A stretch of DNA of 50,863 nucleotides. It comes from Acidimicrobiales bacterium (GTDB taxonomy: Bacteria; Actinomycetota; Acidimicrobiia; Acidimicrobiales; MedAcidi-G1). This document shows, piece by piece, positions 1-50,863 of this stretch (within the stretch, counting starts at the first letter, position 1; every line of letters starts with the position of its first letter). The DNA lies in NCBI GenBank assembly GCA_014237715.1, contig JAAZZG010000008.1, positions 38,871 through 89,733 of the forward strand, in the 5' to 3' direction. The position numbers and the translations under genes were made by a program. The notes under the pieces are model-generated. The model saw only the letters and a list, made by a program, of their open reading frames with translations, was not told the DNA's origin and did not search any database.

Positions 1-2614
1 TCGAGCCGTCCACAGTCTGGATGCCCACCAGGATCGGGAGGTCGTCCCGCTCGTAGGCGTGCTTCAACTCGGGCAGTCCCAGCGTGTCGGGCTTGTCGAG
101 CTTCACCAGACCACCGAGGCCTGCCGTCGGGGCCTTGGATAGCCCGTCGGTATCCTGGCCCACGATGTAGTGGCCCTTTTCGAGGCGAAGAATCCGTTGG
201 GCCTCGACGCCAAACGGCGCGCAACCCAGGTCGGCTCCGGTCTCCAGCAGGGTCTCCCACACGTGGAGGGCGTGCCCGGAGGGTACGTGAACCTCATACG
301 ACAGCTCCCCGGTGAAGCCGATTCGCCAAATGATGCAGTTCGACACGCCAGCTACCGTGCCCTGCCGCACACTGAAGTACGGGAAGGCATCGGCGCTCAG
401 GTCGACGCCCTTAGTCAGGCGCTCCAGCAGTGTCCTGCTGTTCGGGCCAGCCACGTTGATGCTGGTCAGGCCGCCGGTGACAGCCGTGACGTGTACCTCC
501 CACTCCGGATGGGCGGTCTGCAGCCAGTCCTCGAGCATCTCCCATACCGCTCCGGCCCCCGACGACGTCGTCGTCATGAGCCAGTGGTCCTCACCAAGGC
601 GGCCGGTCACGCCGTCGTCGGATACGACACCGTCCTCGGCCACCATGGCGCCGTAGCGCACCCGACCCACGTCGAGCTTCTGCCACTTGTTGACGTACAC
701 CAGCTCGAGGAGCTTGGGTACGTCGGCGCCACGGAGGTCGAGCTTGCCCAATGGGGTTACATCAATGAGACCGACGTTGGCCCGCACGTTGGCTGCTTCG
801 GCCATGGCATTGCCGTACTGGTCGGGACGAACCCATTGCCCAGCAAGGAGCGGCGTCGACCCGTGGGCCTCGTGCCAGTCCTGCAGGGCCGAGCGACGTA
901 CCGGCTCGAGGATCCGCCCGGCGAGGGCGCCCAATGAGATTGGCGAGTACGGCGGGCGCCACACGGTGGTCCCGATGTCGGCCATGTCGACACCGTTTGC
1001 CTCAGCCAGCACAGAAGCGGCGTTAACCGTCTCGAGTTTGCCCTGGGACGGACCCATGGTCACGGTGGTGTACCGCTTCATGAGCTCAATGGAGTCGAAA
1101 CCCTCCTTGGAGGCCTGGACGAGGTCCTTGGACGAAACGTCCTCCGAGAAGTCGACCATGCCGTGGGTGCTGCTCTTGTAGCACTCCGGATGCGGGTTGC
1201 GGGCAAGAGGTGTGCGGCCGTCGGGCATCTCTTCTGGCTTAGCCCAAGTAGGAGTACCTGCGCGCGCCGTTTGGCAAATCCGGTCGTGACGGCGACGCAG
1301 GGAACGGTTGGCCGCCAGTATCCCGGTGGCCCGACCATGGGCCTCCAACTCGACGGTCGACCCGTCGCCGGCGATGCCCCCTGTCGCCAGAATGTTGCTG
1401 GGTAGGACGCCGGACGAGAAGTATCTCGCCGTGGTGGGGTCATACACCGGACGATCACCGCCCATGTTGAGCAAGGAAGTCGGTGCGGTCCAGCCGGTGG
1501 CCGTAATGACAGTGTCGGCACTCAACGTCCGACCGTCGCTCACCTTCACCTTGGAGACACGCCCCTTGCCCTCGACAGACACGATGGTCTCACCCTTTCG
1601 GGCGTCCAGCACGGCAGCGATCTCGACGCCAGCTCGCTCCAGGTCGGCAATGGCAGCGTCACCCTCCTCGTTGGCAGTCAACACGACGGCCCGATTACCC
1701 GGCTTCACGCCGAACAGGTTGATGAGGCGTCGGGCCGCACCGGCCAGGAGAACACCGGGGGTGTCGTTGCCGGCGAAAACGAAGGGACGCTCGATTAGGC
1801 CGGCGGCTACCACCATCACACCAGCGCGCGCCTTGAGGAGGCGCTCGGGGGCAATGGAGTGACTCCGCTGATTCACGGCGATCCAGTTGTGGTCGTATCG
1901 TCCGGTGACCGTCGAGTCGACAAGCACCTCGATGTTGGCGTGCGCCTCACAGGCGGCAGCTAGGTCGGCAGCCGTTGATCGCTGGGCGTCGTCCCCCCAG
2001 CGGAGGTGTCCGCCTAGTTCGGAGTAGTGCTCGACGAGCAGGACCGAGGCACCGGTATCGGCCGCAGCCAGCGCCGCACCCATGCCGGCCGGTCCGCCGC
2101 CGGCAACCAGAACGTCGGGGTGGACGTACCGTTTGTCGTAGGCGCCGTGTGTGCTGGTCCTCCAGTGGATCTCGCCACCTGGTGCGAACTTCCGCAGAAT
2201 CTTCTGGTACAGCGGCCACAGGAACTGCGGCCGCATGAAGGTCTTGTAGTAAAAGCCCGATGACAGGAAGCGACCCACCAACTGGTTAGACGCCGCGAGG
2301 TCGAACTTCAGGCTCGGCCACACGTTTTGGGTTGAGACCTCCATCCCGGCCTCCAACTTGCGGCTGCCAGCCCGAACGTTGGGCTCGTCACCAACTTGCA
2401 GGAACAGGTTCGGGTCCCAATGGTCGGCCGTCATGATGCCGCGCCTGCGGTGGTATTTCATGGAGCGACCGAACACGTCGACACCGTTGGCGGCGATGGC
2501 CGAGGCAATGGTGTCGCCCTCGAAGCCAGTCATCTGCTTGCCGTTCCAGGTGAACGAAAGGCTGGTGGACCGGTCGATGACCTCTCCGGGCTGTGCGGTA
2601 AGTCGGTTCGTCAT
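1..2614 (-). CDS. soxA: Sarcosine oxidase subunit alpha (3' end beyond left edge)
   Basis: Large subunit of heterotetrameric sarcosine oxidase, a cytoplasmic flavoenzyme that oxidises sarcosine to glycine and passes the methyl group to tetrahydrofolate. The ATG at 2614 is preceded by GGAGG and overlaps the soxD stop as ATGA. Visible are an N-terminal region with KYHRRRG, a dinucleotide-binding motif VAGGGPAGMGAALAAA, and, at the edge, the C-terminal GcvT-like folate domain (YERDDLPILVGIQTVDG). About 871 residues are in the window; family members run to roughly 950-1000, so about 100 residues and the gamma-subunit gene expected downstream lie outside. Third sox gene of a Rieske-soxB-soxD-soxA operon. 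Family assignment is firm; the natural substrate could be another N-methyl amino acid. Confidence 0.93.
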   Translation of the reverse strand, partial: MTNRLTAQPGEVIDRSTSLSFTWNGKQMTGFEGDTIASAIAANGVDVFGRSMKYHRRRGIMTADHWDPNLFLQVGDEPNVRAGSRKLEAGMEVSTQNVWPSLKFDLAASNQLVGRFLSSGFYYKTFMRPQFLWPLYQKILRKFAPGGEIHWRTSTHGAYDKRYVHPDVLVAGGGPAGMGAALAAADTGASVLLVEHYSELGGHLRWGDDAQRSTAADLAAACEAHANIEVLVDSTVTGRYDHNWIAVNQRSHSIAPERLLKARAGVMVVAAGLIERPFVFAGNDTPGVLLAGAARRLINLFGVKPGNRAVVLTANEEGDAAIADLERAGVEIAAVLDARKGETIVSVEGKGRVSKVKVSDGRTLSADTVITATGWTAPTSLLNMGGDRPVYDPTTARYFSSGVLPSNILATGGIAGDGSTVELEAHGRATGILAANRSLRRRHDRICQTARAGTPTWAKPEEMPDGRTPLARNPHPECYKSSTHGMVDFSEDVSSKDLVQASKEGFDSIELMKRYTTVTMGPSQGKLETVNAASVLAEANGVDMADIGTTVWRPPYSPISLGALAGRILEPVRRSALQDWHEAHGSTPLLAGQWVRPDQYGNAMAEAANVRANVGLIDVTPLGKLDLRGADVPKLLELVYVNKWQKLDVGRVRYGAMVAEDGVVSDDGVTGRLGEDHWLMTTTSSGAGAVWEMLEDWLQTAHPEWEVHVTAVTGGLTSINVAGPNSRTLLERLTKGVDLSADAFPYFSVRQGTVAGVSNCIIWRIGFTGELSYEVHVPSGHALHVWETLLETGADLGCAPFGVEAQRILRLEKGHYIVGQDTDGLSKAPTAGLGGLVKLDKPDTLGLPELKHAYERDDLPILVGIQTVDGS

Positions 2615-2859
2615 GACGCCTCCTGACCACGGATTTCATTGGTGGCCGTGTTGCGTTCGATTGTGAAATACCGGCGACAACCGCCCCGGCAGTACCAGGT
2701 CTCTGTGACCCAGCCGGCCGGATTGGGCCGCATGTACAGGTATTCACGCCACTCGCTCAACGAGCATGTGCCGGGATCGGGGCGGGAGATGACCTCTCCA
2801 GCCGGTCGAAGGTCACCGGAGTTCCGGGGACCACAGTTGGGGCAGGGAACAATGATCAT
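2611..2859 (-). CDS. soxD: Sarcosine oxidase subunit delta
   Basis: Small zinc-binding subunit of heterotetrameric sarcosine oxidase, 82 residues. Recognisable by N-terminal CPNCGPRN, then RPDPGTCSLSEWREYLYMR, and a C-terminal ETW..GCRRYF block followed by an IERNT..EI segment. The zinc ligands known for the family are two Cys of CPxCG, a His and a Cys in WxHxxGC. Here C6, C9 and C61 are present, but the His position is Cys57 (WYCRGGC), giving a possible four-cysteine site. The start overlaps the soxB stop by one base (TGATG) and the stop overlaps the soxA start (ATGA), which indicates tight translational coupling. Length is slightly below the usual 90-100 residues. Confidence 0.92.
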   Translation of the reverse strand: MIIVPCPNCGPRNSGDLRPAGEVISRPDPGTCSLSEWREYLYMRPNPAGWVTETWYCRGGCRRYFTIERNTATNEIRGQEAS

Positions 2860-4148
2860 CAGTGACCCACCGCCGCAGCGCCCTTTTCGCCAACGAGGTC
2901 GCCCTCGGTGAAGCGTTCGATGCCGAAGGCTGCGATCAGGTCCGCATTGCGACCGGTGGCGATCGTTTCAGCCAGAGTTTCGCCAGCCACCGGGCCGGCC
3001 TTGAATCCGTAGGTACCCCAGCCGACGTCAACCAGATAACCCTCGACGGGCGTGTTGCCCATCACGGGGGAGTAGTCCGGGGTCATGTCACACAACCCTG
3101 ACCACTGGCGTAGTAGGCGCATCTTGGAGATGCCCGGCATGAGCTCCAGCACGTGTCCCGCCAGTTCCTCGGTGAATTCAAGGGTGCCATTGACCCGGTA
3201 GGTACCCACCGGGTCGACCGACGCACCGAACACGAGCTCGCCGCGGTCGGTCTGGCTGACGTAGACGTGTAGTGAGCCCGACACCACCACGGTTGGCAGG
3301 AACACCTTGCACGGCTCGGTGACCGCCGCCTGCAAGGGGTGGGTGGTGATGGGCAGTGGCACTCCGGCCATGTTGGAGATCAACGTCGCCCAACCGGCCG
3401 TGCAGTTCACGACAACGGGGGCACTGATATCACCACGGCTGGTCTTGACGCCAGTGACCTTTCCGCCGGCACCCTTCCCGCCGGGGCCTGAACCGCCCTC
3501 GACCATTATGTCGAGAACCTCGGTCTCTTGGAGGATGTGGACGTCGTGCACATCTGCTCCTCGGGCGTAGCCCCAAACCACAGCGTCGTGCCGGACGATG
3601 CCACCCGGGGGGTGATGCAGCGCGCCCAGGATCGGATACCGGGTGTCCGACGAGATGTCGAGGCTGGGGGCCTGCTTCTTGACTTCCTGCGGGTCAATGA
3701 CGCTGGAGTCGATGCCCTGCAGCTTGTTGACCTCAGCCCGCCAGTGCATGGTCCGAAGCGCGGAGTCGGTGTGGGCCAGTGTGAGGTGGCCCCGTCTGGA
3801 GAACATGACGTTCAAGTTCAGGTCGGTAGCCATGGTGTTGTAAAGGGTGAGTGACCGGTCATAGAAGGCCACGCCCTCCGGCGTCAGGTAGTTGGAGCGC
3901 ACGATGGCCGTATTGCGACCTGAGCCGCCACCACCGATATAGCCCTTGTCGACCACGGCGACGTTGGTGATGCCGTGGTTCTCGGCCAGGTAATAGGCAG
4001 TAGCCAAGCCGTGCAGGCCGCCACCGACGATGACCACGTCGTATGACGATCGCATCTCTGGTCGGCGCCACATTCTCGGCCAGTCGCCCCCGGTCAGGCC
4101 GTGCTTGACCAGCGAGGCCGCCGAGTACTTCGGGGCTCGTTTCCCCAT
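2859..4148 (-). CDS. soxB: Sarcosine oxidase subunit beta
   Basis: Catalytic FAD/FMN subunit of heterotetrameric sarcosine oxidase, 429 residues. The N-terminus MGKRAPKYSAASLVKHGLTG matches the family's lead-in. The FAD Rossmann motif VVIVGGGLHGLATAYYLAENHG sits near residues 38-59. His187 in IVRHDAVVWGYARGAD corresponds to the histidine that carries covalent FMN in characterised enzymes. A glycine-rich loop (EGGSGPGGKGAGGK) is inserted in the middle. The ATG at 4148 was chosen over an upstream ATG at 4214: it has a purine-rich AAGGGAAG upstream, lies 19 bases after the Rieske stop, and starts the conserved N-terminus. Cotranscribed with the Rieske gene, soxD and soxA. Related DadA-type oxidases are a weaker alternative. 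Confidence 0.93.
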   Translation of the reverse strand: MGKRAPKYSAASLVKHGLTGGDWPRMWRRPEMRSSYDVVIVGGGLHGLATAYYLAENHGITNVAVVDKGYIGGGGSGRNTAIVRSNYLTPEGVAFYDRSLTLYNTMATDLNLNVMFSRRGHLTLAHTDSALRTMHWRAEVNKLQGIDSSVIDPQEVKKQAPSLDISSDTRYPILGALHHPPGGIVRHDAVVWGYARGADVHDVHILQETEVLDIMVEGGSGPGGKGAGGKVTGVKTSRGDISAPVVVNCTAGWATLISNMAGVPLPITTHPLQAAVTEPCKVFLPTVVVSGSLHVYVSQTDRGELVFGASVDPVGTYRVNGTLEFTEELAGHVLELMPGISKMRLLRQWSGLCDMTPDYSPVMGNTPVEGYLVDVGWGTYGFKAGPVAGETLAETIATGRNADLIAAFGIERFTEGDLVGEKGAAAVGH

Positions 4149-4167: not shown

Positions 4168-5424
4168 CTAGAGTTCGACCCTGTGCCACGGAAGCGGGTT
4201 GACCCCGGTTCCATAGAGCGGTTGATCGTCGGATTCGTCGCCGACGGGAATCCGAGTGGATCCCGTGAACCGATCAGCGAGCATGTTGTGGAACCGGTGG
4301 AGTGGCTCCTCGAAACGTGGGGAGAGGCGGCCCGGTGTGTAGCCGCCAGCGGTCAGGCCCTTCTGCCCACGTTGGACGATGTCGATGTCCTCACCGTTGA
4401 CGTCCAGCCAGAAATCCCGGGTGGTGGCGAAGTCCTCGTCCGCGACGTGGGGGTTGGACGGCGGTAGTAACCAGGTGCAGACCTCACGGGTCACACCGGG
4501 TGCGATGGGTTCAAGGCGCATCACGAAGACGTGGTTGGGAAGGATGCTCAGCAGCACGTTCGGGAACAGAGCTATGAACCGTCCACTGGCCATATTGGAG
4601 TGGTCGAGTCCCTCAGCGGGGGGCATGGTCGACCAGTCGCCCCGTTCGTCGTTGGACAGCGGGGTGGTGGTCTGACCGCAGTACATGCCGGCGCCCTGGT
4701 AGCGGTAGTGATCTTCGACCCGGGAGACCTTGGCCAGCTCCGGATGAACCCAGCGAAGGTGGTAGTACTCCTGGAAGTTCTCGCTGATGAGCTTCCAGTT
4801 GGATTCGATCTCTATGTCCTGGGTCAAGTGGCTACGCCAGTCGGTCAGCCGGTAGCCGTCTAGCCGATTGCCGAGGTCGCCGAACCATTCGTGTACCGGC
4901 GGGGTTTGGTCGGACAGGCAGACCACTAGAAGGAACTGCCAGGTATCGACCCGCACCGGGTGAAGCCCGTAGTCGGAAGGATCGAACCCGTCCACGCCGG
5001 CCTCGGCGAACTGCGGGGTGGCCATGAGGGCACCGTCACGGTCGTAGCCCCAGCGGTGGTACGGGCATCGGATCGTGCTGCCCAATGTGCAGTCGTCCTC
5101 GAGCAACTGGGTGCCGCGGTGACGGCACGCGTTCATGAAGCCACGGAGATGACCGTTGGCGTTGCGCGTGAGGATCACCGAGCGACCGGCCACCGTTCGC
5201 ACGATGGCGCTGCCCGGCGCATCGAGCTCGTCGTGGAGGCCGACGCAGACCCACGAGGTGGCGAAGACCTGCTCCTGCTCGTCGGCGAAGAAGGACTCGT
5301 CGACGTAACAGTCGGCCGGGAGGGCGTGGGCCTCGTGGACGGGACGTCGGGTCCCGACCCAGGCTTCGTCGGCGGTCCATCGGGACTTCGGGACGAAATG
5401 CAACTTTTCGGTGGAAGTAGTCAT
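4168..5424 (-). CDS. Rieske non-heme iron oxygenase, glycine betaine/choline monooxygenase type
   Basis: Alpha subunit of a ring-hydroxylating-type oxygenase, 418 residues from the ATG at 5424. The Rieske [2Fe-2S] ligands are C100-x-H102 and C120-x2-H123 (CRHRG, CPYHRW). The mononuclear iron ligands appear as H222 and H227 in NWKLISENFQEYYHLRWVHP, with an acidic partner in a late VNGEDIDIVQRGQKGL segment typical of choline or glycine betaine monooxygenases (GbcA type). As first gene of an operon with soxBDA it probably removes a methyl group from betaine or a similar N-methylated substrate upstream of sarcosine. No ferredoxin reductase partner is in the window. A longer TTG start (5469) exists but adds a Cys-rich, unconserved leader. 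The substrate is inferred from context. Confidence 0.88.
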   Translation of the reverse strand: MTTSTEKLHFVPKSRWTADEAWVGTRRPVHEAHALPADCYVDESFFADEQEQVFATSWVCVGLHDELDAPGSAIVRTVAGRSVILTRNANGHLRGFMNACRHRGTQLLEDDCTLGSTIRCPYHRWGYDRDGALMATPQFAEAGVDGFDPSDYGLHPVRVDTWQFLLVVCLSDQTPPVHEWFGDLGNRLDGYRLTDWRSHLTQDIEIESNWKLISENFQEYYHLRWVHPELAKVSRVEDHYRYQGAGMYCGQTTTPLSNDERGDWSTMPPAEGLDHSNMASGRFIALFPNVLLSILPNHVFVMRLEPIAPGVTREVCTWLLPPSNPHVADEDFATTRDFWLDVNGEDIDIVQRGQKGLTAGGYTPGRLSPRFEEPLHRFHNMLADRFTGSTRIPVGDESDDQPLYGTGVNPLPWHRVEL

Positions 5425-5527: not shown

Positions 5528-6475
5528 ATGAATCAAATCGCTACCCATCGGCAGAGCGCGAGCGGCGCAACGTCAAGGACAGGTGACCTCCCGTCCATCC
5601 AGGGTTTGAACACGTTCGCCATCGTGGCCCGCCATGACAGCTTTTCCAGCGCGGCAGATGAACTGGAGATCGGCCAGTCGGCGATTAGTCACGCCATCCG
5701 CCAGTTGGAGCGGTGGTTCGGTTGCGCCCTGTTCGATCGGGATCACCGGGGGATACGCCTCACCGCTGAGGGCCGGATCCTGGCCGATGGTGTGGGTGCC
5801 GGTCTGGCCCGTGTCCACCAGGCGGTTCGAGACGTCCAACACCTCCACGACCACCTCACCGAGGTCGTGACCATCTCGGTATCCACGGCCACGGCCAGCA
5901 ACTGGCTGATTCCCCGTCTGGCCCGGTTCAAGGCCGATCACCCCGAGATCGACGTGCGATGTGTCACCACGGACTCGGATCGCAATTTCGACACCAGCTC
6001 GGTCGACCTGTTCATTCCGGTTGGTCGGGCCCGCTGGCCGGGCTGCCAGAGATGGGCGCTGGCCGACGAGACCGTCTATCCGGTGTGCAGCCCGGAATAC
6101 GCCGCATCGGTCGGGCCGATGCCGTGGACGTCCGATCAGTTGATGGGGGTAGACCTCCTGGCGCTCCAGGAACGGCACCGGTCGCGGATGCGATGGTCCG
6201 AGTGGTTCGCCGCCGTCGGATCCGGTGTGCTACGCGGGACGGGTCAGGGGATCACCAATGACTACTCGGTGCTGCTCCACGCCGCCATGGAGGGGCAGGG
6301 GGTTGCCCTCGGATGGCACCACCTGGTGTCCGACCTAGTGGCACAGGACCGCCTTGTGCGACCGATGGCCGAGGTGGTCACCACTGACGAGCCGCTCTGG
6401 CTGAACGCTCCGCCGGGCCGTTCGCTCGACTCCGCTACCGAGTTGCTGCGCGACTGGCTACTCGACCATGCCTGA
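5528..6475 (+). CDS. LysR-family transcriptional regulator, GcvA-like
   Basis: 315 residues. After about 25 unconserved residues comes a winged helix-turn-helix (IQGLNTFAIVARHDSFSSAA, continuing to IGQSAISHAIRQLERWFG and LFDRDHRGIRLTAEG), very close to the pattern of GcvA, the glycine cleavage activator. A substrate-binding domain follows, with ISVSTATASNWLIPRLARF at its start and the usual second half (GQGVALGWHHLVSDLV). It is divergent from the Rieske-soxBDA operon, whose end products are glycine and one-carbon folate, so it is the likely regulator of that operon with betaine, sarcosine or glycine as effector (inference). The ATG at 5528 follows GGGA and a dyad operator candidate. Confidence 0.9.
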   Translation: MNQIATHRQSASGATSRTGDLPSIQGLNTFAIVARHDSFSSAADELEIGQSAISHAIRQLERWFGCALFDRDHRGIRLTAEGRILADGVGAGLARVHQAVRDVQHLHDHLTEVVTISVSTATASNWLIPRLARFKADHPEIDVRCVTTDSDRNFDTSSVDLFIPVGRARWPGCQRWALADETVYPVCSPEYAASVGPMPWTSDQLMGVDLLALQERHRSRMRWSEWFAAVGSGVLRGTGQGITNDYSVLLHAAMEGQGVALGWHHLVSDLVAQDRLVRPMAEVVTTDEPLWLNAPPGRSLDSATELLRDWLLDHA

Positions 6476-6512
6476 GGGAATGCCTGCTGGAGGGCCGACC
6501 TAGGGTGCGGCC

Positions 6513-7151
6513 ATGAATGAAACACCCATATCCGGCCTGCATGTCATCGACCATCCGCTGGTGGCCCACAAGCTCACCCAGATGCGACGGGTCGAGACGC
6601 CCAGTGGTCAGTTCCGGTCGCTCCTGACCGAGATCAGCTTGCTCCTGGCGTACGAGGTGACGCGCGATCTCGAGTTGCGGGACGTCCGGATCACCACGCC
6701 GATGACCGAGAGTGACCAGCCGGAACTAGTCGAGGATCCGGTGGTGGTGTCAATCCTCCGAGCCGGCAACGGGCTGCTGGACGGCGTGCTACAAGTAATC
6801 CCTTCGGCCCGGGTGGGCCACGTCGGCCTATACCGGGACCACGAAACCCTCGAGGCTGTCGAGTACTACTGCAAGTTCCCTCCGCTAAAGGGCCGAACGA
6901 TCATCGTGGTGGACCCCATGCTGGCCACCGGCAACTCTGCCGCCGCTGCCCTCGACCGGGTAAAGCTCGACGGGCCGGCGTCGATTCGGTTTCTGTGCCT
7001 GCTGGCGGCTCCGGAGGGCATCGAGGCGCTTCAGACCGCCCATCCAGACGTGGCCATCTGGACGGCATCGGTCGACGAATGCCTGAACGAGGTTGGCTAC
7101 ATCGTTCCCGGGCTTGGAGACGCCGGTGACCGGATCTTCGGGACGACCTGA
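6513..7151 (+). CDS. upp: Uracil phosphoribosyltransferase
   Basis: Pyrimidine salvage enzyme that makes UMP from uracil and PRPP in the cytosol, 212 residues, the usual length. Diagnostic features are the N-terminal [12 protein letters not shown], the [13 protein letters not shown] helix, [17 protein letters not shown], the PRPP-binding loop [12 protein letters not shown] near residues 131-142, and a C-terminal [10 protein letters not shown]. Start ATG at 6513. The gene stands between the LysR gene (same strand, about 40 bases upstream) and a polysaccharide deacetylase that begins 16 bases after its stop, so upp may be cotranscribed with the latter although the functions are unrelated. Confidence 0.96.
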
Positions 7152-7167
7152 TTCGGGGCTTGTTTCG

Positions 7168-8256
7168 GTGAGGCGGATTCACGGTGGCGGCCGGCGGGGC
7201 GCACCAGTCCTGACCCTGATGGTCCTTGGGCTGCTGGCCACCCTGACCATAGGACCGGCGCGGGCGGCCACGGCTGGTGTCGTAGATTTCGTCGGAGTGG
7301 AGGCCGCCGGGCTAGACGCCGGTGAGGCTGGTGGCCATCTAATCGGCCGAGACCCCGGCGTCGTCTACCTGACCTTCGACGATGGTCCCGATCAACTCTT
7401 CACCCCGATCCTGCTGGACCTGCTGGATCGACACGGCGCCCGCGCCACGTTCTTCTTCCTGGGTCGGAACCTGGCGGCCCGTTGGGGGAGTGATGAGGTA
7501 CAGGACCTGCTGAACCGGGGCCATGCGGTCGGAAATCACTCCACCCACCACCGGAAGTTGACCGAACAGCCACCATTGAGCGTGGCCGCTGACCTCGAGG
7601 AAGCGTCGCTTCTGTTGGCCGACCGGACCGGATTCCGACCCTCGTGCTGGCGTGCGCCCTATGGCGACCTTGACGAAATGGTCCGCTCGGTGGCCGGTTC
7701 GCTGGACATGACCCATGTCGGGTGGACCGCCGATCCCCAAGAGTGGCTCAACCCTTGGGTGCCGGTAGTTATCGACTACCTGACTCGTAAGCGAGGCGAC
7801 GGTGCAGTGGTGTTACTTCACGACCGGAAGTGGTTGTCGCTTCACATTGTGGACGACCTGCTTCCGGTATTCCACGACGACGGATGGAGATTCGACGCCT
7901 TACCGGCTTGCCGTGCTCCGGGAGAGCGTGAAGCCCGGATGGCGACCCGGGGGACCGATTCCACGCCGGTGGGTCGGGTGGACCGGGTAGCGACCGTCGG
8001 TGGCGGTCTAAAGGTCACGGGTTGGGCTTACGACGCCGACGCTCCAGACGGGGGTCTGGACATCCGGGTGAGCGTGGGCGACCCCGAACTGGAGCCACCG
8101 GTCTGGACGGCGTCCCAGACAGGATCAGACCACGGCTTCGTCGTGCACCTGGCCGAGGTCGCCCACGACCCGATCTGCGTGTGGGCGGTTGACGCTGGAC
8201 GACGACAGGACGCTGTCCTTGGGTGCCATCGCCACGAGATCGCTCCCGAGGGGTGA
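7168..8256 (+). CDS. Secreted polysaccharide deacetylase (NodB homology) with C-terminal GWAxDAD module
   Basis: 362 residues from GTG 7168. A signal peptide is visible (VRRIHGG, then hydrophobic LTLMVLGLLATLTIGPARA). The NodB domain follows with the metal-site motifs TFDDGP and NHSTHH, the FFLGRN segment, RAPYGD, and a late VVLLHD, all needed for a metal-dependent carbohydrate esterase 4 enzyme. The last 90 residues form a separate beta-rich module (VGRVDRV.., KVTGWAYDADAPDG, IRVSVGD) like those found in actinobacterial exported proteins; its role is unknown, perhaps surface binding. An upstream TTG at 7093 would overlap upp and precede the signal peptide, so it was rejected. It likely deacetylates peptidoglycan or another N-acetylated glycan. 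Confidence 0.88.
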   Translation: MRRIHGGGRRGAPVLTLMVLGLLATLTIGPARAATAGVVDFVGVEAAGLDAGEAGGHLIGRDPGVVYLTFDDGPDQLFTPILLDLLDRHGARATFFFLGRNLAARWGSDEVQDLLNRGHAVGNHSTHHRKLTEQPPLSVAADLEEASLLLADRTGFRPSCWRAPYGDLDEMVRSVAGSLDMTHVGWTADPQEWLNPWVPVVIDYLTRKRGDGAVVLLHDRKWLSLHIVDDLLPVFHDDGWRFDALPACRAPGEREARMATRGTDSTPVGRVDRVATVGGGLKVTGWAYDADAPDGGLDIRVSVGDPELEPPVWTASQTGSDHGFVVHLAEVAHDPICVWAVDAGRRQDAVLGCHRHEIAPEG

Positions 8257-8278
8257 TAGCACCCGTACCCTCCGTCGG

Positions 8279-8956
8279 GTGACACGGCAGTTTCCCGACG
8301 GACCACCCGTCGACGAGGCAGGAACACTCCTAGCCGTCCAGCACCGGGTGGCCCGCGCCATGAGCCTGGTGACCCGCCTCGAGGTCGGGCCCCCACCCGA
8401 GATCACGCCTGGCCCGGTCATCCACGCGGCTAACCACAGGAGTCTGGCCGACCTCCTCCTAGCGGCGAATACATTCAGCCGTTGGGGATGGCCCATCCGC
8501 CCTCTGGTGGCTGGCTCCTACTTTCAACGACCGGGCATCGGTTGGCTGCTCGAGAGGCTGCGTTGTATTCCGGTCGATGGTACGGAGGCGCTGGACCTGG
8601 CCATCGAGGCACTGTCAGAGGGGTGGTCGGTGGCGATCATGCCGGAGGGCCGGATTGTGCCCGAAGCGGAATGGGCCCCCACCGGAGTGGGACGTGCCCG
8701 TACGGGAATCGGACGTCTGGCCATTGACACCGGTCTCCCGGTGGTGGCTATCGGCGCCAGCGGGACTGAACGCTTCTGGCCCCGCGGCCGGTCCATGCCG
8801 CAGATCAGGCCGGGCCGGCGATTTCCTCTGGCCGTGAGTTGCGAGGTGGTGGGCGTGATCGCCGACGAAGCGGCCCGGGATGCAACTGATCTGATCATGG
8901 ATGCCATCGCCCGTCAGGTGGTCGAGTCGGACCGAAAGACCGGTCGCATTACCTGA
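8279..8956 (+). CDS. PlsC-type 1-acyl-sn-glycerol-3-phosphate acyltransferase
   Basis: 225 residues from GTG 8279. Acyltransferase block I is NHRSLADLL (HxxxxD, residues near 49-54), a middle block holds GSYFQRPGIGWLLERLRCIPVDG, and block III is MPEGRIVPE, corresponding to the FPEG motif. It would transfer an acyl chain to lysophosphatidate or a related acceptor at the membrane surface. A TTG at 8189 is in frame but would overlap the deacetylase gene by 68 bases; the GTG at 8279 places the HxxxxD motif at the usual distance from the start. No strong ribosome site is visible for either. The substrate is not determinable; homologues also act on glycolipids. Confidence 0.85.
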   Translation: MTRQFPDGPPVDEAGTLLAVQHRVARAMSLVTRLEVGPPPEITPGPVIHAANHRSLADLLLAANTFSRWGWPIRPLVAGSYFQRPGIGWLLERLRCIPVDGTEALDLAIEALSEGWSVAIMPEGRIVPEAEWAPTGVGRARTGIGRLAIDTGLPVVAIGASGTERFWPRGRSMPQIRPGRRFPLAVSCEVVGVIADEAARDATDLIMDAIARQVVESDRKTGRIT

Positions 8957-8967
8957 GGGGTGGCGGA

Positions 8968-9114
8968 TCAGCTGTGGCTGTGGTCGTCTCGCAGGAACAG
9001 GTTGTGGGCAAGGTGGTGGTGGGCGTGATCGTCGAGTCCTCGTTTACCATGGGCCTCGGGATTGAGCACCGGTTCCGGTGGGCCGTCGGTGATTAGGCGT
9101 TCGTCTAGTGCCAA
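8968..9114 (-). CDS. Possible His-rich microprotein (doubtful)
   Basis: A 48-codon open frame from TTG 9114 to TGA 8968 in an otherwise gene-free 194-base gap. The C-terminal third is strikingly histidine- and aspartate-rich: LDDHAHHHLAHNLFLRDDHS. No homologue is recognised, there is no clear ribosome site, and no ATG lies in frame; a shorter GTG start inside is possible. If translated it might bind metal. It may equally be a chance open frame in GC-rich DNA. Confidence 0.15.
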   Translation of the reverse strand: MALDERLITDGPPEPVLNPEAHGKRGLDDHAHHHLAHNLFLRDDHSHS

Positions 9115-9150
9115 CTTTTGAATGTCACTCTGGGCTCCTATTATCAGTTC

Positions 9151-10134
9151 GTGACATCTCCAGCCGTGCCCCCAGCCGACGTAGAGGTGCTGGCTACTTA
9201 CGACTCCTCAGTAGATCTCGAGGGGAAGCGGAAGTGGACGCCGGACAAGCGGATGCAACTCGGCCCTGTGGGCCACATCGCCGACGAACGCGAGAGCCTG
9301 CTTGATCGCTCCTGGGAGCACTTCGACGCCGACCTCCTGGCTCCGACGGTGGGCGCTGTGCTGCACGGCATTGACCTGTCCGGCCACCTGCCGACCGAGG
9401 TCATCGACGATGTCCAGATGGCATTGGACATCTACAAGGTCATCTTCTTCCGTGAACAACACCTGACCAAGAATGAGCACCTGGTGTTCGCTCGCCGGTT
9501 CGGCGAGTTGGAGGTCCACCCGTTCCTTCCATCCAACGACCTCCAACCGGAGCTGGTCCGTTTCGACAAGGGCCCAAGCGTCGGCGGCTATGAGAACAAC
9601 TGGCACCACGACGTGACCTGGAGAGAAAATCCCTCGAGGTCGACTGTCCTCCGTTGCGTCCAGTCGCCATCGATTGGCGGCGACACGCTGTTCGCCGACA
9701 TGTGCGCGGTGCATGACGGGCTCCCCGACGACCTGCGTACCGAGATTGATGGTCTATCGGCTATCCATTCTTTCGAGCGGTCCTTCGGCTCGCAGGTGCC
9801 CGATGAACGCAAGGGCGAGTTTCGTGCCCTATACCCGGAAGTCGAACACCCGGTGGTCTGCACTCATGGTCGCACCGGTCGTCGATTTCTCTACGTGAAC
9901 CGTGTCTTCGTGGATCGGTTCGTCGAACGCAGCCATGAGGAAAGCATCGACCTGTTGGACCGTCTCTGTCGGCAGACCGACTACCCCGAATACCAGTGCC
10001 GTTTCCGCTGGGAACCCGGGTCGATCGCCTTCTGGGACAACCGTGCCGTCCAGCACTACGCCAGCAGCGACTACTGGCCCGACGTGCGGGTCATGGAGCG
10101 GGCCAGCATCATGGGAGACCGACCCGTCGCCTGA
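9151..10134 (+). CDS. TauD/TfdA-family Fe(II)/alpha-ketoglutarate dioxygenase
   Basis: 327 residues from GTG 9151 (TTG 9118 is also in frame). It couples decarboxylation of 2-oxoglutarate to oxidation of a substrate in the cytosol. The iron motif HxD is in NNWHHDVTW, matching the WHTDVTF of taurine dioxygenase. GGDTLFADMCAVHDGL follows, and the distal His and the 2-oxoglutarate Arg are in the C-terminal WDNRAVQHYAS...R region. It carries about 50 extra N-terminal residues before the family's usual first strand. No sulfonate or phosphonate transport genes are nearby, so the substrate is unknown. It converges on the flavodoxin-like gene. Confidence 0.9.
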   Translation: MTSPAVPPADVEVLATYDSSVDLEGKRKWTPDKRMQLGPVGHIADERESLLDRSWEHFDADLLAPTVGAVLHGIDLSGHLPTEVIDDVQMALDIYKVIFFREQHLTKNEHLVFARRFGELEVHPFLPSNDLQPELVRFDKGPSVGGYENNWHHDVTWRENPSRSTVLRCVQSPSIGGDTLFADMCAVHDGLPDDLRTEIDGLSAIHSFERSFGSQVPDERKGEFRALYPEVEHPVVCTHGRTGRRFLYVNRVFVDRFVERSHEESIDLLDRLCRQTDYPEYQCRFRWEPGSIAFWDNRAVQHYASSDYWPDVRVMERASIMGDRPVA

Positions 10135-48225: not shown

Positions 48226-49272
48226 TCACGATCCGTCGAGCGGGTCATGGGCCGCGAGTGCCTCAGCCAAAAGGGTGTTGGCGCCCGACTGCTCCAGGAC
48301 CCCGACCAGCTGGCCGCCGGCAAGTTCGGTGTAGATGCCGGTCGTAGTGATGGTGGCGTGGCCCAGAAGGCTCTGGATCACGTTCATGGGTACTCCATCG
48401 GCCGCCAGCTGCACTCCGGCCGTATGGCGCAGTGAATGAAGCGAACGGTCGCGCAGGCCGGCCTCACGGTTCAAAAGTTTCAGCCAGTACCGCAGACGCT
48501 GGTAGGTGAACCGGTCACCACTATTGGTCGCAAATAGGGGAGCGGTCGCTCCCGATGGCCCGAAGCGTTCCGTCCGCTCCGCCTGCCACCGGTCATTCAC
48601 GTCGACAAGTTCATCGGACAGGGGGAGTCGACGTATTCGTCGACCTTTGCCCACTACATGGAGCATCCAGGTTGCGCGGCCGTCAGCGTCCACCAGACGT
48701 TCTCTGGTGATCCAGCCGACGTCGGCCGACAGGATTTCGGCGGACCGGAGACCGAGAACCGCCAGGAACGAGCACATGGCCAAGTCCCGGGTGGGCCATC
48801 GCACACGGCTCCCCCGTGGGCTTCCATTATCTTGAGAAACGGGCCAACTTCGGGCTTCCTCGTAGAGCTCGCTGATCTCAGTTGGGCGGTAATACTCGGG
48901 GTCGACTTGGGGCACGGCAAGTTTGGCTACCTTTCGAATCCGGGCGATGTCAGGTACCACTGTCACCAGCCGGTCAGCCACGCAGTAGTCAAAGAATGAC
49001 TTGAGGGCAGCGAGCGTCTGGTTGATGGTCGACTTGGAGACGTCTGGTTCGGCCCGCATGGCCCGCACAGTGTCAGTCAGCGTGGCCTGATCAAGGCTGT
49101 CAGCCCGAAACGCCGCCGGAGAGATCTCAGCGAACGAGACGACCCGCCGGACACCCTGACCGTAGGCGCGTACCGTGTGAGGCGGTTTGTCCTCATAGAG
49201 GGGTAGCCATGCCAACCATTCGTGGAATACGGCCGACATGTCCTCTGTTGGGGGTAGGTCCCGGTAGGACAT
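48226..49272 (-). CDS. Xer-like tyrosine recombinase (phage-integrase family)
   Basis: 348 residues, longer than typical XerC/XerD (about 300) and closer to single-recombinase Xer proteins. An N-terminal SAM-like DNA-binding domain (residues about 12-105, with KPPHTVRAYGQGVRRVVSFA and STINQTLAALKSFFDYC) precedes a catalytic domain with every active-site residue: Arg176 (LGLRSAE), Lys209 (VGKGRR), His279 and Arg282 (SLHSLRHT), His305 (LLGHATI) and the nucleophile Tyr314 (TTGIYTE). It would perform site-specific recombination. A dif-like 28-bp site lies 34 bases upstream of the start. No excisionase, relaxase or phage gene is nearby. ATG 49272 is the first start after the site. Confidence 0.92.
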   Translation of the reverse strand: MSYRDLPPTEDMSAVFHEWLAWLPLYEDKPPHTVRAYGQGVRRVVSFAEISPAAFRADSLDQATLTDTVRAMRAEPDVSKSTINQTLAALKSFFDYCVADRLVTVVPDIARIRKVAKLAVPQVDPEYYRPTEISELYEEARSWPVSQDNGSPRGSRVRWPTRDLAMCSFLAVLGLRSAEILSADVGWITRERLVDADGRATWMLHVVGKGRRIRRLPLSDELVDVNDRWQAERTERFGPSGATAPLFATNSGDRFTYQRLRYWLKLLNREAGLRDRSLHSLRHTAGVQLAADGVPMNVIQSLLGHATITTTGIYTELAGGQLVGVLEQSGANTLLAEALAAHDPLDGS

Positions 49273-49306
49273 ATTGCTGAGTCTGCTCCCTGCGGTCGGT
49301 ACTCAA

Positions 49307-49334
49307 GTCATTGATAATCTCCATTATCTTGACA
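49307..49334. other. Candidate dif/att core site upstream of the recombinase gene
   Basis: AT-rich island in GC-rich DNA. The core GATAAT-CTCC-ATTATC (49313-49328) has the same geometry as the E. coli dif core CATAAT-GTAT-ATTATG. Read as a Xer site it gives an 11-bp left arm (GTCATTGATAA), a 6-bp centre (TCTCCA) and an 11-bp right arm (TTATCTTGACA). A second, overlapping inverted repeat pairs AATCTCCA (49316-49323) with TGGAGATT (49338-49345). It could be a chromosome-dimer resolution site, an integration core, or an operator for the recombinase gene. Confidence 0.45.
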
Positions 49335-49432
49335 GATTGGAGATTCGGCGAGGTGGACCCCCCGCCACCAGACCCACCCGTATGACATCAGGCATTAAAG
49401 CGTTAGCGACAGCCTGGTGGCTTCTGTACGCG

Positions 49433-49477
49433 GCGGAGCCCCGGGCCAGGCTCGTAAGCCGTTACCCGGGGCTCCGC
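49433..49477 (-). terminator. Strong hairpin after the substrate-binding protein gene
   Basis: GCGGAGCCCCGGG pairs perfectly over 13 bases with CCCGGGGCTCCGC around a 19-base loop. It begins 21 bases past the stop of the minus-strand substrate-binding protein gene and before the recombinase gene, so it is probably the transcription terminator that insulates the latter. The T-run is weak. Confidence 0.65.
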
Positions 49478-49498
49478 TTCACACGATGGACAAGGCTC

Positions 49499-50863
49499 CT
49501 ACGGAGTGCCGTCCATGATGTCGGTCAGGGGTTCAATGGCACCGGCGTCTGTGCCGTTATCAACAAACGTCGAGAGCCGGAAGGAATCAGATGCATCGAA
49601 CTTGCTCAACCCCAGGGACGAGAAGGGACTCAATGGCAACTTGAACTCCGGCATCGAAGCCGCCGCCTCTCGGAAGGAGTCGTGGGTGAGATTCGCTCCC
49701 GCCTTGCCGGCAATCAGTTCGAACATTCGCAAATAGTTGCAGTAGGTCATGATCGATCGCCACCATTTCTCGATCCCGTCCTCGTGCGTGTCTGGCGACC
49801 CGATCTCGATTTCGGGATGACGTGCCTGGAACGGCTTGATGCATAGCTCCTGAACCTCGTCCTGTTCGAGTTGCTCCTGCTCGGTCAGGCCGGTGAGCGT
49901 CACGGCACCCTCCACCATCTCGGGGGTGACGTTGCTCAACGACGTTAGGGACTCGTTGTTGTACGGGAAATATTCGACGTCAACGTCGGCCCAGAACAGG
50001 CCCCGGAAGCCGGCACGGTCACCGCCGGCGAATACGACCGCCTCAGCTCCCGATGTGCGAACCCGCTCGGATACGACCTCCCACCACGCGTCCTCTGCCT
50101 CGGTGTCCCCCACCGTGACCTCGCTAATGGCCTCCAGTACTACCTCGACGCCAAGGGAGCCGAGGGTTGCCACACCAATGTCGTATGCGCCCTGACTCGC
50201 CGTGGCGCCGACGATTGCAACCTTCTTACCGTCTAGGTAGCCGTTCTGGTGTAGCAGCGTCAGGTACACCGCCATGCGGCGCTCCGTAGAAGTCCCGGAC
50301 TCCAACCACGGGGCGGAGGCCTGGCCGAGACGCTCAGCGGTTATCCGGCCACCGATCAAGATGGTTTCCTGCTGTCCGGGAATGCAGATGTTGGAGATCT
50401 CAGCCGGGCCCACGAAGCCACCAAGCACAACGAAAGTCTCAAAGTCGCCAGCCACCTCTAGACACACGCTGTCCGCGCTGATGCCCAGACCAGGGATGGC
50501 GCTATATGGACGCACCGCGTCGAGCACCACCTGACGGCCGTTGATGCCGCCCCGGTCGTTCAGATCGGCCACCACGGACTCCCACACAAGGGTCATGTCA
50601 CCCCAGCCATTGGGCGAGAAACCATTGTCGACCAACCATTGGAAGTCGATGGTGGTCGCAGCGATGTGGATCGAGTCCTCAGTGACGCCCCGCCACGAAG
50701 CCGTCAACGGCTCTTCGACGGGAAGCATCGGGCCGACCTGCATTGAGCCGCCGGGGGCGTACTCGTAGACGACGTTGGCGTTGGACGCAGAAACGTCACC
50801 AGAGTCGGCGTGACCGATCACGGTGATCTTCTGGGAACCACAGTCGCCAAAGGCGTCACAGGT
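49499..50863 (-). CDS. ABC transporter substrate-binding protein, type I periplasmic-binding fold (5' end beyond right edge)
   Basis: At least 454 residues visible; the signal peptide and start lie outside, since the frame stays open to the edge (first residues TCDAFGDCGSQKITV). An apparent GTG start at 50821 is internal. Branched-chain amino-acid/amide binding-protein pattern: VVADLNDRGGINGRQVVLDAVRP, FVVLGGFVGPAEISNICIPGQQ, VAIVGATASQGAYDIGVATLGSLGVEV, SGAEAVVFAGGDRAGFRG. Several Cys suggest disulfides. No permease or ATPase genes are in the window, so its partner is unknown; a truncated or solitary sensor-type binding protein is also possible. Confidence 0.82.
   Translation of the reverse strand, partial: TCDAFGDCGSQKITVIGHADSGDVSASNANVVYEYAPGGSMQVGPMLPVEEPLTASWRGVTEDSIHIAATTIDFQWLVDNGFSPNGWGDMTLVWESVVADLNDRGGINGRQVVLDAVRPYSAIPGLGISADSVCLEVAGDFETFVVLGGFVGPAEISNICIPGQQETILIGGRITAERLGQASAPWLESGTSTERRMAVYLTLLHQNGYLDGKKVAIVGATASQGAYDIGVATLGSLGVEVVLEAISEVTVGDTEAEDAWWEVVSERVRTSGAEAVVFAGGDRAGFRGLFWADVDVEYFPYNNESLTSLSNVTPEMVEGAVTLTGLTEQEQLEQDEVQELCIKPFQARHPEIEIGSPDTHEDGIEKWWRSIMTYCNYLRMFELIAGKAGANLTHDSFREAAASMPEFKLPLSPFSSLGLSKFDASDSFRLSTFVDNGTDAGAIEPLTDIMDGTP

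Follow-up and report, generated by a model that had tools for sequence, protein, structure and literature searches.

The XerCD recombinases and FtsK have been reported from nearly all sequenced bacteria (PMC5357621), and systems that rely on a single recombinase are also described, namely XerS, XerH and XerA (PMC5357621, PMC2731167) and XerL (PMC9765430). XerS of streptococci and lactococci is described as one recombinase that is genetically linked to its terminus site, difSL, an atypical site of 31 bp. XerH of Helicobacter and Campylobacter, with 354–362 residues (PMC5357621), is described as FtsK-dependent, and its site, difH, is reported to be difSL-like and to adjoin the gene in most species (PMC2731167). 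The archaeal XerA is described as using a 28-bp site independently of FtsK. In Legionellales, XerL is reported as the one recombinase present where XerC and XerD are missing; recombination has been demonstrated there, and the site is mimicked on a mobile element (PMC9765430).

The locus described here lies in the window, by which we mean the whole 50,863-nucleotide stretch of DNA that was analysed. We infer that the family carrying it is that of the marine Acidimicrobiales of MedAcidi-G1 type; MedAcidi-G1 and its kin are described as one marine GTDB family in the order Acidimicrobiales (PMC10205998). The locus has three features:

49307..49334, + strand: dif-like 28-mer of 11-6-11 geometry, GTCATTGATAA TCTCCA TTATCTTGACA, based on sequence, family conservation and the RGGGGAG switch at or near orthologous sites
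49313..49328, no strand assigned: palindromic core GATAAT CTCC ATTATC, that is GATAATNNNNATTATC, based on sequence and family comparison
48226..49272, - strand: tyrosine recombinase of 348 residues, the sole PF00589 protein found in the source genome, below the NCBIfam cut-offs for XerC, XerD, XerS and XerA

The 28-mer is very probably the dif site of this family, and the adjoining gene its single Xer-type recombinase. The first-pass annotation had pointed out that the sites of single-recombinase systems adjoin the gene, and published descriptions agree, XerS being linked to its site and XerH adjoining its own in most species (PMC2731167). The arrangement here is the same. The protein is also similar in size to XerH, and an FtsK gamma domain is present. 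XerH comes from another phylum, however, the recombinase is only 17–18% identical to XerH structures, and the site has a classical dif ATAAT/ATTAT core, unlike the difSL-like difH. The site is 28 bp long, whereas difSL has 31 bp, and the protein scores 45.8 bits against the XerS model NF003462, below the cut-off of 267. Chains of XerA (5hxy) are the best PDB fold matches, but the XerA model NF040815 gives the protein 89 bits, under its cut-off of 220, and the presence of FtsK-gamma here contrasts with the FtsK independence described for XerA. The likeness to XerL, drawn from its description, lies in one recombinase where XerC and XerD are missing, and the mimic on a mobile element may have a counterpart in candidate phage mimics (below); XerL belongs to another phylum, and its recombination has been demonstrated, whereas the module here is known from sequence. 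The 28-bp 11-6-11 geometry is common to this site and the actinobacterial XerC/XerD/dif system; the dif suggested for Frankia equals the window's site at 15 of 28 bases (PMC3025954), and corynebacteria and a XerC/XerD-bearing genome of the data set (G026) share the family's polar motif. That system uses two recombinases, whose genes lie apart from each other in the relatives seen, whereas here there is one, beside the site and outside the XerC/XerD clade. Searches of the open-access literature found nothing joining Acidimicrobi-, Xer and a dif site, and no report of a single-recombinase Xer system in Actinomycetota.

A conserved palindrome upstream of the recombinase gene

The first-pass annotation had proposed an exact dif-like 28-mer with an ATAAT/ATTAT core and 11-6-11 geometry, 34 bases ahead of a 348-residue recombinase. 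Both the letters at 49307–49334 and the ORF coordinates confirm this, with 34 bases between the 28-mer and the ATG. The core GATAATNNNNATTATC has a single perfect match in the window and occurs perfectly only once in the 2.33-Mb source genome; with up to two mismatches, the window holds two matches, compared with an average of 0.15 over 100 shuffles.

Conservation in relatives had been suggested as a check on the site, and the core is kept in every usable family locus. Searching 300 bases upstream of the gene in 30 family loci revealed GATAA-N6-TTATC 5’ of the recombinase in 29/29 loci that have upstream sequence, the other locus (L060) ending inside the gene at a contig end. The distance between site and aligned start varies from 18 to 88 bases, and the 29 sites represent 19 distinct sequences. 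The fixed part is GATAA and TTATC, found in all 29, and the inner pair adjoining these halves covaries: it is T-A in 14 sites, C-G in 13 and C-A in two, so that T-A or C-G accounts for 27/29.

A second core in the source genome, GATAACGCCGATTATC at C4:41070, was rejected as a second dif, as its outer arms are absent and its position is intergenic. This palindrome (G000:C4:41070–41085) also occurs in genus mates (L062:1501–1516 and L176:5071–5086). It lies between genes, with a small ORF starting MKIKVDAEKC behind it, and is perhaps an operator.

A recombinase outside the XerC/XerD clade

The recombinase comprises a catalytic domain and an N-terminal SAM-like domain. The first-pass annotation had credited it with all catalytic residues, and R176, K209, H279, R282, H305 and Y314, which we take to be these residues, are indeed conserved: across 25 family proteins, five of the six are invariant and R176 is nearly so. 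The description of the protein as a lone recombinase also holds for the source genome, where PF00589 has one match (assembly 92.6% complete, 75 contigs); further, divergent tyrosine recombinases occur in some family members. A structure model, good for fold class only (mean pLDDT 73.5, pTM 0.52), retrieved XerA and XerH first in a fold search, then Cre and others.

The protein scores below the cut-offs of the XerC model TIGR02224 (117 versus 335 bits) and the XerD model TIGR02225 (111 versus 330 bits). The curated XerD cut-off is passed by 4/61 genomes and the XerC one by 0/10 relatives, and because so few genomes pass, the gap to relatives, which score 250–345 bits, is the better test. Among 37 family genomes, several of them 94–98% complete, nothing exceeds 129 bits to the XerD model and canonical XerC and XerD were not found. 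By comparison, 18 of 24 genomes from other families of the order exceed 250 bits, 13 of them twice; the other six (G027, G031, G033, G038, G040 and G064) are likewise without canonical XerC/XerD matches. The search for xerC and xerD that had been recommended as a check therefore leaves the one-recombinase reading standing. A separate, conserved dif was also sought: the canonical actinobacterial pattern GATAATNNNCATTATGTNAA, with at most one mismatch, was found in 0/37 family genomes, which says little because only 1/24 other genomes has it. FtsK-gamma was identified in 39/41 genomes, including 23/25 in the family, and the source genome has it.

A midpoint-rooted tree was built from 41 rows; its branches are long, it includes one certain XerC, and a rule was used to trim several of the starts. 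The family proteins make up a single clade in it (100/100), distinct from the one containing E. coli XerC and XerD. The order's XerD-like proteins group with the E. coli proteins, outside the family clade, and one G033 recombinase falls in the XerD clade. The nearest row to the family clade is a second recombinase of G022. On the family's side of the tree (94/85), on long branches, also lie recombinases from three genomes in which canonical XerC/XerD are missing, G031, G038 and G064.

A polar motif converges on the site

Every 8-mer was counted by its orientation relative to the site on 15 contigs, and TGGGGGAG (toward:away 139:13) and CGGGGGAG (138:15) proved the most biased. The motif RGGGGAG occurs 596 times toward the site and 59 times away on 14 contigs, with G022:C26 left out. 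Near-relative words are hardly biased (TGGGGAG 100:87, RGGGCAG 370:351) or moderately so (CGGGGAG 266:190, RGGGGAC 233:110). GGGGGAG and AGGGGAG top the 7-mer list in four contigs and show ratios of 232:18 and 166:30 in ten others; by share toward the site, they rank 1–2 of 12,011 7-mers with at least 100 copies. The ten-contig hold-out is not blind, because the initial choice of the motif had already drawn on the site in all 15 contigs, and G026 and the published octamers therefore serve as the independent checks. The density of copies pointing toward the site is 77 per 100 kb within 2 kb of it, compared with 24–39 beyond 10 kb. In the window, the motif is distributed as follows:

48536..48542, + strand: toward-pointing RGGGGAG copy; the window has 16 such copies on the + strand
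Other + strand RGGGGAG starts: 3066, 7484, 14692, 19512, 24004, 25237, 25819, 28417, 34987, 38101, 38422, 38549, 44201, 47030, 48621
RGGGGAG pointing away, three copies: 43667, 48050, 48809

Eight contigs, from four genera, have two arms. The fitted switch interval contains the site in six of them (G017, G019, G021, G053, G058 and G063); in G059 and G013 it falls 0.45 kb and 1.7 kb away, respectively. One-armed contigs show toward:away ratios of 23:3 (G000), 35:8 (G002), 28:2 (G006), 16:2 (G011), 19:0 (G045) and 32:3 (G054), and in G000 and G002 the best switch is 0.5 kb from the site, inside the recombinase gene. The exception is G022:C26, where seven motifs up to 8.3 kb fit, most others do not, and a reversal occurs at ~8.4 kb; GC skew is also opposite over the rest of this contig, which points to an assembly error such as a misjoin, or else to a true inversion.

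Corynebacterial dif sites are reported to have been located via G(A/T/C)GGGGGA and (T/C)GGGGGAG, following Hendrickson and Lawrence (2006), with 856 leading-strand and 61 lagging-strand copies of the octamers given for C. aurimucosum (PMC2830990, PMC3022926). RGGGGAG matches these published polar octamers, and the motif itself is not new. G026, a relative in which XerC and XerD are present (322 and 262 bits), is an independent control with the same motif and a different recombinase set and site: over 40 kb on each side, RGGGGAG switches at the canonical-type dif (toward:away 32:3 on the left, 21:6 on the right), and the best switch interval contains that dif. The E. coli KOPS GGGNAGGG was rejected as the guide motif, being weakly polar on the 14 contigs (231:138) and non-polar around the G026 dif.

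GC skew

If the site is the terminus, positive skew is expected in left arms and negative skew in right arms of the 15 family contigs with the site. The sign is as expected in 19/23 arms (sign test, 0.0013); the exceptions are the left arms of G011 and G053 and the right arms of G017 and G022, two of them nearly flat. The skew maximum lies at most 31 kb from the site in 12/15 contigs, several of which are one-armed, and a 293-kb contig of the source genome that lacks the site has negative skew in all fifteen 20-kb windows. Of the skew switch looked for near the site, the arm signs and the position of the maximum are thus observed, and the local step is not: with 30-kb flanks in five contigs, 9–93% of same-contig positions score at least as high as the site. 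As a locator, GC skew proved helpful but blunt, giving no local maximum at the site, and it was replaced by the polar motif; around the G026 dif it shows no clean switch either.

Distribution and gene neighbourhood

Scanning genome contigs with the family alignment yielded 30 loci, 27 of which were judged group members (54–91% identity) and three distant (36%, 24% and 40%). At an E value of 1e-20, an ortholog is present in 30/48 genomes of the window's family. The other 18, of which five are high quality, lack a match at this threshold (G009, G024, G055, G056 and G062 are among the 18); in 15 of the 18 the site core was also unmatched, and in 11 searched with the XerD model canonical XerC/D was absent too. 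Either contigs have been lost or the absence is real, in which case these genomes would be left without a known dimer-resolution system. Among 248 genomes drawn from the order, nine matches were found at 1e-40, eight in the window's family and one in family f27, where the gene carries the same kind of site.

Gene neighbours are largely syntenic on both sides in the 28 loci compared. A cluster of AlgH-like genes follows the recombinase, with 23 members over the 28 loci, the window's member being AlgH by Pfam; other neighbour clusters recur downstream and upstream, and a few loci differ (e.g. L068, L086 and L091).

Contigs often end near the site, 19/29 of them within 4 kb compared with 6.6 expected, and frequently inside the upstream cluster-4 gene, whose counterpart in the window (49499–50863) has no Pfam hit. 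Internal repeats in this gene were considered as the cause of the assembly breaks, and none were found in two loci. Strain-level variation beside dif may possibly lie behind the contig ends.

Alternative explanations and a proposed mechanism

The palindrome could instead regulate the recombinase gene as an operator or promoter element, its terminus position being incidental. Its symmetry and its location, 18–88 bases upstream of the aligned start at each of the 29 usable loci, fit this role, and a consensus scan of 49200–49560 found no sigma-70-like promoter; a double role is also possible, because the sites of the described XerS and XerH modules adjoin their genes. Regulation leaves unexplained, however, both the rise in motif density toward the site and the reversal of the polar motif at the site or within 1.7 kb of it on eight two-armed contigs from four genera, and we consider this explanation improbable. 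The first-pass annotation had also raised an attachment core, in which case the gene would encode the integrase of an element that integrated and is now fixed in the family. The position of the protein outside the XerC/XerD clade, its best PHROG match (an integrase family, 137 bits) and the clustering of assembly breaks (19/29 contigs ending within 4 kb versus 6.6 expected) are consistent with such an origin. Yet synteny with the genes on either side is largely kept across the family, which leaves that option unsupported; the protein has only two weak relatives among viral contigs, no second attachment half was seen, since the perfect core occurs once in the source genome, and the site lies at the polarity switch. 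An integrated element is accordingly very unlikely. There is also a very slight probability that the site is a dif served by XerC and XerD that were missed in draft genomes. The source genome is 92.6% complete in 75 contigs, but the shortfall extends over 37 family genomes, all at or below 129 bits where 18/24 relatives reach 250–345, and several of the 37 are 94–98% complete.

The two other options raised at the outset, a one-gene Xer/dif module and the replication terminus, are supported jointly, the former by the failure to find canonical XerC/XerD in 37 family genomes and by the conserved linked site, the latter by the RGGGGAG strand switch at or near that site. A conserved site–gene module lies at the convergence of a polar motif in genomes without detected canonical XerC/XerD. 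Four features of single-recombinase Xer/dif systems were found in these draft genomes: one Xer-type recombinase, a linked palindrome, a terminus position and FtsK-gamma.

If the 28-mer is dif, septum-anchored FtsK would read RGGGGAG through its gamma domain and pump terminus DNA toward the point where the motifs converge, so that a pair of sites comes into contact. Each copy would then be bound by two monomers of the one recombinase, one on each half-site, and cleavage and strand exchange across the 6-base centre would convert a chromosome dimer into monomers, in a reaction that FtsK would control.

Candidate modules in other families and candidate site mimics on viral contigs

Loci in other Acidimicrobiales families provide further leads. 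On L179 (G038), RGGGGAG points right at 938–4112 and left at 5704–9682, with the recombinase between; GATAA TTCTGC TTATG (core 4782–4797) overlaps the presumed start codon of the gene at 4795, and a perfect 11-5-11 palindrome lies ~60 bases upstream (L179:4708–4734). On L177 (G031), the motif switch falls at the recombinase start, in the interval 2393–3569, and a weak core that overlaps the presumed start codon is found around 3244–3268. These stretches are 8–10 kb long with small motif counts, and among the twelve such loci scanned, those besides L179 and L177 contain few motifs or lack a clear switch at the gene. Proteins related to that of G038 are present in 11/118 genomes, G038 included; one belongs to family f16, of which another genome, G039, has XerC/D.

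The pattern GTCAAGATAATNNNNATTATC occurs in 53 viral contig stretches, ten of which have 55–62% GC (L279, L289, L291, L292, L293, L299, L304, L305, L312 and L313). These ten are related to each other in DNA sequence, some being nearly identical. An ORF scan of three revealed terminase matches in L279 and L292, GP88 in L289 and L292, and a DNA methylase in L289; the L279 terminase had 2583 matches among phage records, all below 60% identity. L293 and L292 share an ORF, here named ferredoxin-like, that resembles one in the family contigs L141 and L228. The 28-mers of five contigs equal the window's site at 20–23/28 bases, a likeness and invariance that are mostly built in because an 18-base pattern was used to select the contigs. 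Not built in by this selection is a toward-pointing RGGGGAG less than 140 bases from the site in 8/10 contigs (distances counted manually); farther copies often point away. No recombinase relatives were found in the ten contigs, which appear to be tailed-phage-like and to carry a candidate dif mimic. The other 43 stretches with GTCAAGATAATNNNNATTATC, in DNA of 22–50% GC, were together set aside as chance or shared phage coding sequence, as were, taken together, the stretches matching site patterns 2 and 3 (4 and 21, also 22–50% GC).

It is possible, though on balance doubtful, that XerC/XerD loss and takeover by a dif-carrying recombinase are wider in Acidimicrobiales, reaching two more families (clear at L179, weak at L177), and that ferredoxin-sharing tailed phages with a site mimic and guide motifs use the host recombinase to integrate or to resolve multimers. 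A phage mimic, if real, would be a handle on viruses of these hosts.

Implications

Single-recombinase replacements are known from some Firmicutes, epsilonproteobacteria, Legionellales and archaea, and the putative module described here now adds a lineage of Actinomycetota. The gene and site form a cassette of ~1.1 kb that is easily tested in E. coli or yeast, and the ocean group it comes from is represented here solely by metagenome and single-cell assemblies. The family appears to have kept the polar motif and FtsK-gamma while its recombinase and site changed, and because the motif and the gamma domain are kept, a recombinase switch under a constant FtsK may be open to comparative study.
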